Source: Heterostelium album PN500 | Taxonomy: Eukaryota; Evosea; Eumycetozoa; Acytosteliales; Acytosteliaceae | Reading direction: 5' to 3' | Assembly (NCBI RefSeq): GCF_000004825.1 | Contig: NW_008805067.1 | Span: 248,001-312,000, forward strand | Length of the DNA: 64,000 bases | Part shown: positions 48,090-63,987 of the stretch, piece by piece | Layout of the letters: each line of letters starts with the position of its first letter | How positions within the stretch are numbered: position 1 is the stretch's first letter | Made by a program: the position numbers and the translations under genes | Notes under the pieces: model-generated | What the model was told of the DNA's origin: nothing | Seen by the model: only the letters and a program-made list of their open reading frames with translations | Databases searched by the model: none

Positions 48090-49107
48090 TTCTTATATAT
48101 AAAAGACTCGATTGAGTTCAAAACATAACAACACAAATCATTTTTAAATTTGCTACTTAATTTTTTTTTTTTTTTAATTTTTTTTTTTTCTTAATAGTAA
48201 TTTTTTTGTACAACCTTAATTACTGATTGTTAAGGTAGGATTTGATAAAAAATATAGATTATTAATAACAAAATAATCATTTCATAGTAATACTCTTTAA
48301 ATCAGTCCCTACAAAATATCATTGTTTTTAACATACCAAAAAAAAGCAAAAAAAAATGAAAAATTTAATTAAATTTTATTTATTTCGATTGGTCAACTCA
48401 CTTTCAACCTCGATATATTAGGAATGTAAATGCGAATGATATTTTAGAGGGTCAAAATTCATTTGAAAAATGTGAACTTCATTTTTTATAATCACATTTT
48501 TCAAATAAAATGATTTCAAAAGATTTGTTGACTCATGATCAGTCAACAAATTGCAGGTATTGATATTAACCTGCTAGTTCGTGTTTTATATTATATATAA
48601 TTGCCAATAAAATATTATTATTATTCCCTACAAAATATCATTGTTTTTAACATACCAAAAAAAGCAAAAAAAATGAAAAATTTAATTAAATTTTATTTAT
48701 TTCGATTTTTCTTTGGTCAACTCACTTTCAACCTGGATATATTAGGAATGTAAATGCAAATGATATTTTAGAGGGATTATTATTATTTTTTTTTTTTTTT
48801 TTTGCAAAAAAAGATTTTTTAATAAATAGGTAGATGATCAGTCTATTTATTTATTAATTATCAACTCAAATAATTCAAAGTCTATTCAGAGTTAGTGTAA
48901 GAACTTGTTTTATGTTTATTAAATATAAATTGATCATACCTATCCAGAGTTAGTGTAAGAACTTGAATAGTAAAGTTGATCGTTCGTTTTTTGAATAGTC
49001 GTTTTTTGAATAGTCGTTGAGTTTTTAAAAATGAAATTTTTTTTTTTTTTTTTTTTTAAGAAGTAAAAAATGATTTATTAAGTAATATATTGGGGATGGT
49101 GTAAACC
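48090..49107. repeat. Repeat island: duplicated 145-150 bp block, hairpins, short direct repeats
   Basis: Non-coding. Two direct copies of one block lie at 48307-48451 and 48626-48775, differing by a 7-bp insertion and a few substitutions. Between them are two perfect inverted repeats: 15-bp arms at 48461-48475 and 48492-48506, and 10-bp arms at 48524-48533 and 48541-48550. Further on, a 21-bp direct repeat (CAGAGTTAGTGTAAGAACTTG) occurs at 48887 and 48945, then two tandem GTTTTTTGAATAGTC units near 48984. Several T runs (48786-48803, 49039-49058) may be tails of old insertions. Confidence 0.75.
48524..48550. repeat. Perfect inverted repeat, 10-bp arms
   Basis: TTTGTTGACT, 7-nt spacer, AGTCAACAAA. 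It lies between the two copies of the duplicated block. With the 15-bp inverted repeat just before it, it would form two adjacent hairpins. Confidence 0.8.
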
Positions 49108-49760
49108 ATCGAATTTTTCTTTTTTTTTTTTTTTTTTTTTTTTTTACAGTTTTTACTTTTTCATAATTCTGCAATTGATTGCTATTTTGATTGTTATTAT
49201 AATTATTTTAGTTATTGATATTAATAGATTGTTAAGCTGATGAGAATACTGATGATTGAATTGGTTAATTTGAAAATGAAGAAATGAAGAAGAGGAAATA
49301 ATAGTTGGCTGACATTTGATTGGTTATTGGTTATTTAAGTTTGGATTGTAAGTTACTGATACTGTTATTTATAATTAATTTCATTACTGATAAGTGCTGT
49401 ATATATTCATTAATGATAGATTCATTAGATAGTAGGTTGTTATCGTGGAGAGGAGTACCGCCAAAATAGGATTTACAATAGAATTTCCAGATTTGATGAA
49501 AGACAAGTGAAACGAGAGTAGTGATGTTGTCCTTTCTTCTAACCAACTGATACGCGTCTTCCATAGTCCAATCGAATCGTTGACCACCTGAAAGCTGTAA
49601 GGAGTCAAGAATGGTGTTAAGGTTGAATCTGTGCATAACTGCTCGACAATTAAAGAATGTATGGAAATATGGGTCAGAGCAGTATGTGAAGCACAGTTCA
49701 CATTCTTTGTTTTTGTTGTAAGCTAATCCAGGAATTTTAAAAATGAAAAATAATTTGAAT
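49108..49760 (-). mobile_element. 5'-truncated non-LTR (LINE, TRE-like) retrotransposon 3' fragment
   Basis: On the minus strand, an open frame ending at 49331 encodes IPGLAYNKNKECELCFTYC...HTFFNCRAVMHRF...LVFHQIWKFYCKSYFGG. The C-x2-C...H-x4-C array followed by a hydrophobic IWK helix resembles the zinc-binding end of LINE reverse-transcriptase proteins (zf-RVT). After the stop come about 185 bp of 3' UTR and then an A run (T run on the plus strand, 49111-49145), as expected for a LINE tail. Only the last 130 or so residues of ORF2 remain. It lies about 100 bp downstream of a tRNA-Tyr gene on the same strand, the target zone known for TRE3-type elements of Dictyostelium. Exact 5' end and target duplication were not found. 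Confidence 0.55.
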
Positions 49761-49840: not shown

Positions 49841-49930
49841 TCCGACTTGCCAGACTCGAACTAGCAACCTTTTGATATCTCTTGTGATTCTTACTACAGT
49901 CAAACACTCTACCACTTGAGTTAAAGTCGG
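49841..49930 (-). tRNA. tRNA-Tyr (anticodon GTA), with a 17-nt intron
   Basis: Full cloverleaf on the minus strand. Acceptor CCGACTT/AAGTCGG, D stem ACTC/GAGT, anticodon stem TTTGA/TCAAA, T stem GCTAG/CTGGC with TTCGAGT loop, discriminator A. The 24 nt between the anticodon stem strands begin CTGTA, giving anticodon GTA and leaving about 17 nt of intron one base 3' to it, the standard place for eukaryotic tRNA-Tyr introns. A TTTT run follows the 3' end as a pol III terminator. Confidence 0.95.
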
Positions 49931-63366: not shown

Positions 63367-63438
63367 AGCATCTTAGCTCAGAGGAAGAGCGGTGGGCCCA
63401 TAACCCACAGGTCGGTCGATCGAAACTTCCAGATGCTA
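63367..63438 (+). tRNA. tRNA-Met, initiator type (anticodon CAT)
   Basis: 72 nt. Acceptor AGCATCT/AGATGCT, D stem GCTC/GAGC, anticodon stem GTGGG/CCCAC around CCCATAA, and an ATCGAAA T loop. The A at position 1, the GGG/CCC-ended anticodon stem with C33, and the A-rich ATCGAAA loop (no T54) are eukaryotic initiator marks. The T stem (GGTCG against CTTCC) has two mismatches, so it may be slightly decayed. CTTTT follows as a pol III terminator. Confidence 0.82.
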
Positions 63439-63478
63439 AACACTTTTGCAAAAAAGCAACACACCATTTGCGCGCATA

Positions 63479-63524: not shown

Positions 63525-63987
63525 TGATCTACCGCCCAAGCCTCTTTGGCCAAGTTGGTCCATTAGTAAGCCTTAGAGGACTTGGGTCGTGGGATCGATC
63601 CCGGGTTTTTACAAAAAATTTTCCCGACTTGAAAGGAGCGCGCCACGTACTAATCTAGTATTCAATACTATCTTGGACCCCATGAAGTTGACACCGACAG
63701 TAACTAGCAGGCTTATCATAGGTGAACACCGAGTGGTTTACACACGTACCCGCTTAGAATTCTAAGTGGCTTAAATACTCAGTCTGCCAAACCAAATCAA
63801 TGGGAACATCATCCCTTTCTCAAAATGATGGCCACCTCAGCCGGCCTGTGGCTGAACTGCTCCAACAATAAATAAATAAAAACACGAACTGTAGGGTAAT
63901 ATCAAGCTCTACACCTTGACTATCAGTAATGGTAGTACAAGGATAATTTTAAAAAAAAAAAAAAAAAAAAAAATGATCTACCACCCA
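63525..63987 (+). mobile_element. Candidate tRNA-derived SINE with poly(A) tail and target-site duplication
   Basis: A 14-bp repeat TGATCTACC[G/A]CCCA sits at 63525-63538 and 63974-63987. Inside it, the element starts at 63539 with a tRNA-like head: A-box-like TGGCCAAGTTGG (63547-63558) and B-box-like GATCGATCC (63593-63601) at normal spacing, so an internal pol III promoter is likely. A non-coding body of about 340 bp follows, then a run of 23 A (63951-63973) immediately before the second repeat copy. No long frame. These are the hallmarks of a SINE mobilised by LINE machinery. The body has no similarity I recognise. Confidence 0.7.

Follow-up and report, generated by a model that had tools for sequence, protein, structure and literature searches.

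A short dispersed repeat of Heterostelium album with a tRNA-gene-like head and a LINE-like tail: a candidate SINE found downstream of tRNA genes

The repeat and its neighbourhood

The window, a stretch of 64,000 nucleotides from Heterostelium album PN500, carries close to its end a tRNA-Met(CAT) gene and, downstream of it on the same strand, a complete copy of a 440 bp repeat flanked by a short target-site duplication. In its sequence, an A1-U72 pair and three G-C pairs next to the anticodon loop are consistent with an initiator tRNA. The gene lies just upstream of the repeat, as had been noted in the preliminary description, with a gap of 86 nt to the duplication and of 95 nt to the element itself. 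The features of the locus are as follows.

63367–63438, + strand: tRNA-Met(CAT) gene (ARAGORN; Rfam RF00005, 47.4 bits)
63469–63476, + strand: TGCGCGCA palindrome, of a kind found 15–35 bp downstream of many tRNA genes (pattern search)
63525–63533, + strand: target-site duplication TGATCTACC, 5′ copy (flank comparison)
63534–63973, + strand: complete SINE, 440 bp including the A tail (family alignment and genome search)
63534–63643, + strand: head, resembling a tRNA gene (best match tRNA-Val(AAC)) plus its 3′ flank (local alignment against shuffles)
63547–63558, + strand: A box TGGCCAAGTTGG (motif match)
63593–63601, + strand: B box GATCGATCC (motif match)
63606–63610, + strand: T5 run 3′ of the B box, at which pol III might stop prematurely (copies compared)
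63638–63643, + strand: GCGCGC, 36 nt after the B box (spacing read from the sequence)
63644–63836, + strand: body, with matches within the SINE family alone (genome, LINE-locus and Rfam searches)
63837–63855, + strand: tail hairpin 1, loop GGCCTGT common to SINE and LINE (folding and comparison)
63879–63890, + strand: AAAACACGAACT linker common to SINE and LINE (tail comparison)
63890–63913, + strand: tail hairpin 2, loop AATATCAA common to SINE and LINE (folding and comparison)
63914–63942, + strand: tail hairpin 3, core TTGACT/AGT(A)CAA (folding and comparison)
63951–63973, + strand: A tail, 23 nt (read from the letters)
63974–63982, + strand: target-site duplication TGATCTACC, 3′ copy (flank comparison)

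A SINE architecture of about 435 bp, with a 23-nt A tail and a 14-bp flanking repeat containing one mismatch, had been proposed here. The architecture was confirmed as an element of 440 bp and the A tail is present at 63951–63973, but the duplication had been drawn too long. The letters of the 14-bp repeat are present; the true duplication is the 9 bp TGATCTACC, because other copies show that the element itself starts GCCCAAG, and the 14-bp version was rejected as its last 5 bp belong to the element. The resemblance between GCCCA and ACCCA after TGATCTACC is chance or microhomology. The element has no long ORF, the longest start-to-stop ORF wholly inside it being 58 aa, and no terminal inverted repeats were found at its ends.

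Of the copies that cover each site, nine of 11 match the A-box consensus and 11 of 13 the B-box consensus; these are the internal pol III boxes that mark the SINE class. The tRNA-like head of the preliminary description contains these boxes and resembles a tRNA gene, but it does not score as a tRNA, with no Rfam tRNA match even at an E value of 5. A riboswitch match in the Rfam search of the SINE was set aside as chance (15 bits against a gathering score of 36). When the head was compared with 43 tRNA genes and their flanks, three tRNA-Val(AAC) genes scored 54, 52 and 50, followed by tRNA-Phe at 49, with a maximum of 49 in 300 mononucleotide shuffles. As the three highest scores all belong to tRNA-Val(AAC), descent of the head from a tRNA-Val gene is favoured by the alignments, not proved. 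The best alignment extends through the tRNA into its flank as far as GCGCGC, and the spacing between GCGCGC and the B box resembles that of a palindrome found downstream of tRNA genes (see below).

Each of 13 copies compared that retain the head has a T-run 3′ of the B box (T5 in 12, T4 in one). Among 42 tRNA genes searched over 60 nt, the first T-run was T4 in 21, T5 in seven and T7 in two, and 12 had none. Because the first T-runs of the tRNA genes are mostly T4 or T5, the T5 of the element might stop pol III, and transcripts could end at about 75 nt. This counts against the SINE model, and the T5 run is the chief weakness of the mechanism proposed below.

Copies of the repeat and their duplications

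A search of the genome (32.9 Mb in 39 contigs) with the SINE yielded 53 matching stretches, and the best 40 of 52 candidates were scored. As 40 of the 52 first-look candidates were scored, the copy number is a lower bound, and the family occupies 40 or more sites scattered over the genome. The 40 distinct places compared were the window copy and 39 others; ten weaker places were added among the other stretches, nine of which matched the trimmed SINE query, the exception being L075. A short (440 bp), non-coding repeat dispersed in at least 40 places agrees with the definition of a SINE, and this number of places puts the architecture beyond chance.

Seven of the 40 copies are full-length and A-tailed, with pairwise identities of 93.8–100%. 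The remaining 33 comprise 27 that are 5′-truncated and retain the tail and six without a tail. The window copy is identical to one other full-length copy (L009) over 411 aligned letters and the duplications around the two differ. As these identical copies lie between different duplications, the family probably moved recently, judging from the sequences.

Flanking duplications were examined in 37 copies with an A tail, drawn from the 40 places and the weaker ones. An exact flanking repeat of at least 8 bp was found in nine of the 37, compared with 23 of 1332 mismatched flank pairs, and in one of the nine (L073) the repeat is set back from the ends. In the full-length copies the proportion was six of seven, and the seventh (L012) has a repeat of 7 bp. 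The A-rich 3′ end and variable target-site duplications typical of SINEs are thus present, and the dispersed copies with A tails and differing duplications that the preliminary description had named as the support to look for were recovered.

One full-length SINE (L013) was found inside an older SINE piece, with the duplication AGGTGAACAA, 123 bp from a tRNA-Leu gene. In three further copies that bear the head, L024 (L080), L076 and L035 (L081), the 3′ part is replaced by other sequence. The replacement in L024 and L076 is a related AT-rich repeat starting AATACTCCTAAATATAATAAATAAATACTC.

Insertion sites and the resident LINEs

In 16 of the 40 copies, a tRNA gene of the same orientation ends 39–133 bp before the start of the SINE. 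Placement at such a site, remarked on earlier for the window copy, is therefore a property of the family and not of that copy alone. Assuming 420 tRNA genes, the chance for each copy of lying within 150 bp downstream on the right strand is about 0.001. Six further copies lie 270–687 bp and another six 951–3734 bp downstream of a tRNA gene, and for L018 a same-strand tRNA about 515 bp upstream was recognized by Rfam only, at a gene truncated where the stretch ends. For 11 of the 40 copies, the roughly 0.6 to 2.6 kb of flank examined revealed no tRNA upstream; in two of them a tRNA lies beyond the 3′ side, on the opposite strand and more than 3 kb away. Among the two nearest tRNA genes listed for each copy, none was upstream on the opposite strand. 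At least some of the larger distances hold other elements, as in L020 where a LINE lies between tRNA-Val and the SINE. Of the full-length copies, L009, L011, L012, L013 and the window copy are 82–133 bp from the tRNA gene, and L010 and L014 are 469 and 338 bp away, respectively.

Many tRNA genes are followed by a GC-rich palindrome. Among 43 tRNA genes from the fetched loci, CCGCNNGCGG began 15–35 bp past the gene in 21 and GCGCGC did so in 11, with neither found exactly in the other 11. In a separate list of 24 high-scoring Rfam tRNA genes from contigs 2–9, picked independently of transposons and with pattern listings that seem complete, CCGCNNGCGG or TGCGCGCA was located 16–35 bp downstream of 15 (0.008 expected). 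Over the whole genome the palindrome patterns totalled 136 and 78, with reversed-control totals of 21 and 35, respectively. Of the fetched tRNA genes, 22 of 43 had a perfect GC-rich 8-bp palindrome downstream, and none of 42 had one within 70 bp upstream. Letters resembling CCCATAA or CCCGTAA precede the TGCGCGCA-type palindrome in several tRNA genes. The palindromes are possibly an element of the tRNA genes of this lineage.

About 180 bp past the A tail of the window SINE is another A-tailed 3′ end (L048:1155–1260). A genome search with this tail gave 44 matches, the best 40 of 99 candidates being scored, and 20 regions with such tails were examined with about 6 kb upstream of each. They belong to a LINE of which L053, nearly complete, is the most complete copy examined; it encodes an APE endonuclease domain (PF03372) and a reverse transcriptase domain (PF00078) in separate open pieces. 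A same-strand tRNA was found upstream in 18 of the 20 loci, and the first LINE piece begins 40–124 bp after the tRNA in 16 of the 18 and 277 and 942 bp after it in the other two. At the remaining loci, L053 and L066, no tRNA was found in the stretch. This placement is TRE3 behaviour as given in the table of dictyostelid TREs in PMC5006619, which includes Pp_TRE3-A and Pp_TRE3-B. The positions of the SINE match those of the LINE, and the SINE family, with 16 of 40 copies inside 133 bp, shows the insertion downstream of tRNA genes that characterizes TRE3. The SINE, having no long ORF, does not encode an endonuclease and reverse transcriptase; it works like a TRE3 in its placement, but is not a member of that group.

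The 3′ ends of the SINE and this LINE are approximately 72% alike over about 105 letters; their local alignment score is 49, and 1000 dinucleotide shuffles gave 29 at most. One tail from each of two other LINE families scored 22 (reached by 37 of 500 shuffles) and 18 (reached by 224 of 500). Comparison of the SINE 3′ end with those of local LINEs, as suggested at the outset, thus revealed a relationship to one of three LINE families, and a 3′ end related to that of a resident LINE is the mark of a SINE of the stringent type. The order of parts is the same in both tails: a hairpin with the loop GGCCTGT, the single-stranded AAAACACGAACT, a hairpin with a loop around AATATCAA, a hairpin built on a TTGACT/AGTCAA core and the A tail. 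In the window copy the folded region spans 63837–63942. Fold-energy z scores were −4.3 for the SINE tail and −3.7 for the LINE tail (300 shuffles each), and −4.4 for a slightly shorter SINE stretch.

When the stem arms were aligned by hand from the loops, omitting one bulged base of hairpin 3, 12 pairs were the same in SINE and LINE, one differed at a single position, seven differed at both positions but remained paired, and two were unpaired in one of the elements. Since essentially two lineages are being compared, the changes on both sides are suggestive, not statistical. At least six pairs were kept in hairpin 1 by 15 and in hairpin 2 by 16 of the 26 SINE copies tested, and in other copies the hairpins have decayed or the loops are altered. 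A search for a LINE bearing the tail sequence of the SINE itself found none; where inspected, its 40 matches were SINE copies, fragments or mosaics. The likeness of about 72% to the LINE tail and the failure to find a LINE with the SINE tail count against the model of mobilization given below, as do the hairpins broken in decayed copies and the 11 SINE copies and two LINE loci for which no upstream tRNA was found.

Two other LINE families were considered as partners and rejected because their tails are unrelated to that of the SINE. One is a LINE with a 1109-aa open frame (L083–L089 and L072) and the other a third LINE represented at L084, L092 and L093 and in the window. The copies of the 1109-aa LINE have nearly identical 3′ ends, with open frames of 1107–1114 aa in five places and 209–433 aa in three more, and at L088 the LINE, inverted relative to a tRNA-Asn gene, lies downstream of it. 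A 5′-truncated, A-tailed piece of the third LINE with the 3′ hairpin GATGGTTTACACCATC occupies 49037–49753 of the window on the minus strand. It is approximately 90–105 bp downstream of an intron-containing tRNA-Tyr gene (49841–49930, minus strand), and a CCGCATGCGG palindrome lies between the two.

Proposed mobilization and alternative explanations

The repeat is very probably a non-autonomous retroposon, a tRNA-derived SINE whose tail mimics a TRE3-type LINE at its 3′ end and whose movement depends on that LINE. Because its tail and placement match one LINE and two other LINE families lack this tail, mobilization by the TRE3-type LINE, with inheritance of its tRNA-gene targeting, is the probable course. 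The preliminary description had suggested mobilization by such a LINE from the tRNA-Met site, and the placement of the family and the LINE-like tail lend this suggestion support. Transcription of the SINE would start near 63534, driven by the A and B boxes, and the RNA would end in the three-hairpin module and poly(A), imitating the TRE3-type LINE 3′ end. The LINE protein, which we infer to act in trans, would bind this module and the A tail and nick the DNA about 40–130 bp downstream of a tRNA gene, where the SINE RNA would be reverse-transcribed on the strand of the tRNA gene. Reverse transcription would often stop early, causing the 5′ truncation, and a duplication of about 8–14 bp would be left. 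Targeting would come from the LINE.

If the copies were processed pseudogenes of a host non-coding RNA not yet described, spread by LINE machinery that needs poly(A) alone, they would also be A-tailed and often 5′-truncated, as they are, and the body matches nothing known. This origin is nonetheless unlikely, as all seven copies with both ends are A-tailed and no tail-less parent gene was found among the at least 40 places, a LINE-like three-hairpin tail is not expected of a host RNA, and the A and B boxes are retained within the copies. Still less probable is that the element is not a SINE but a TRE3 derivative with an internal deletion, a counterpart of the non-autonomous TRE5-A.2 of D. discoideum. 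Such a derivative would account for the tail module and the target being held in common, but the SINE tail has a distinct sequence of its own and the head resembles a tRNA gene. Moreover, once SINE pieces that are nested or lie nearby and 18 bp at one locus are set aside, neither head nor body has a convincing match in the TRE3 loci examined, and the body had none in the LINE loci searched. A MITE (a short DNA transposon) or a mosaic formed by chance is very improbable indeed; the repeat is short, non-coding and dispersed, as a MITE would be, but it lacks terminal inverted repeats at its ends, and the A tails, variable duplications and 5′ truncation contradict both.

A tRNA-derived SINE moved by a TRE3-type LINE would resemble the stringent-type tRNA-derived SINEs described in PMC3747384, which likewise have a pol III-type head, an unrelated body, a tail related to a resident LINE, an A tail and duplications. 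It differs from that description in the likeness of its tail to that of the LINE, which is distant and structural, and in the clustering of its insertions downstream of tRNA genes. The dictyostelid TRE3 LINEs in PMC5006619 are coding elements of more than 4 kb, whereas the SINE is 440 bp long and non-coding. EhLSINE1/2 of Entamoeba, the SINE-like elements tabulated under Amoebozoa in PMC3747384, are also amoebozoan non-autonomous elements paired with LINEs, but the origin of their head is given there as unknown and their partners are EhLINE1/EhLINE2. TRE5-A.2 of D. discoideum is non-autonomous and moved in trans at tRNA genes (PMC5633606), so help in trans for the SINE has a precedent. However, TRE5-A.2 is a LINE variant without ORF2 from a family that inserts upstream of tRNA genes, and the account of it in PMC5633606 mentions no tRNA-like head. 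The word SINE is absent from the main texts of PMC5006619 and PMC5633606, and it appears in general statements in PMC5911963. Among the matches listed in the open-licence literature we found no report of a dictyostelid SINE, in agreement with the earlier remark that none is well described, though one may be on record elsewhere.

Taken further, it seems likely from the sequences that this is a target-specific SINE which, by imitating the TRE3 tail with conserved loops and changed stems, borrows a LINE that selects tRNA genes and settles in the safe zone downstream of them in a compact genome. The head would apparently be a whole tRNA gene together with its downstream palindrome, making each copy potentially a new landing mark. 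This suggests tRNA-gene targeting in the service of an element that is itself parasitic on a parasite, within a compact genome. A SINE at tRNA genes also offers a small natural substrate for testing how TRE3 recognizes RNA and target, and the loops kept while the stem letters change point to the parts of the tail RNA that may be read.

Several loci hold more than one element. The region L048:974–1780, mostly past the end of the window, is a nested pile of LINE and SINE downstream of the tRNA-Met gene; the window SINE sits a few bases inside the 5′ end of a fragment of the third LINE, followed by the TRE3-type tail and a reverse transcriptase fragment (by eye). Template-switch chimeras of LINE and SINE were considered for L031 and L050 and rejected, as their flanks, inspected by eye, suggest a TRE3 piece inserted into a SINE; since this piece has its own duplication in each, both are read as nested insertions. 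An 18-bp SINE-like stretch precedes the LINE piece in L055. In L072, on the minus strand, the 3′ end of a 1109-aa-type LINE is followed by the start of a TRE3 tail, an inverted SINE piece and a SINE 3′ end with an A tail.
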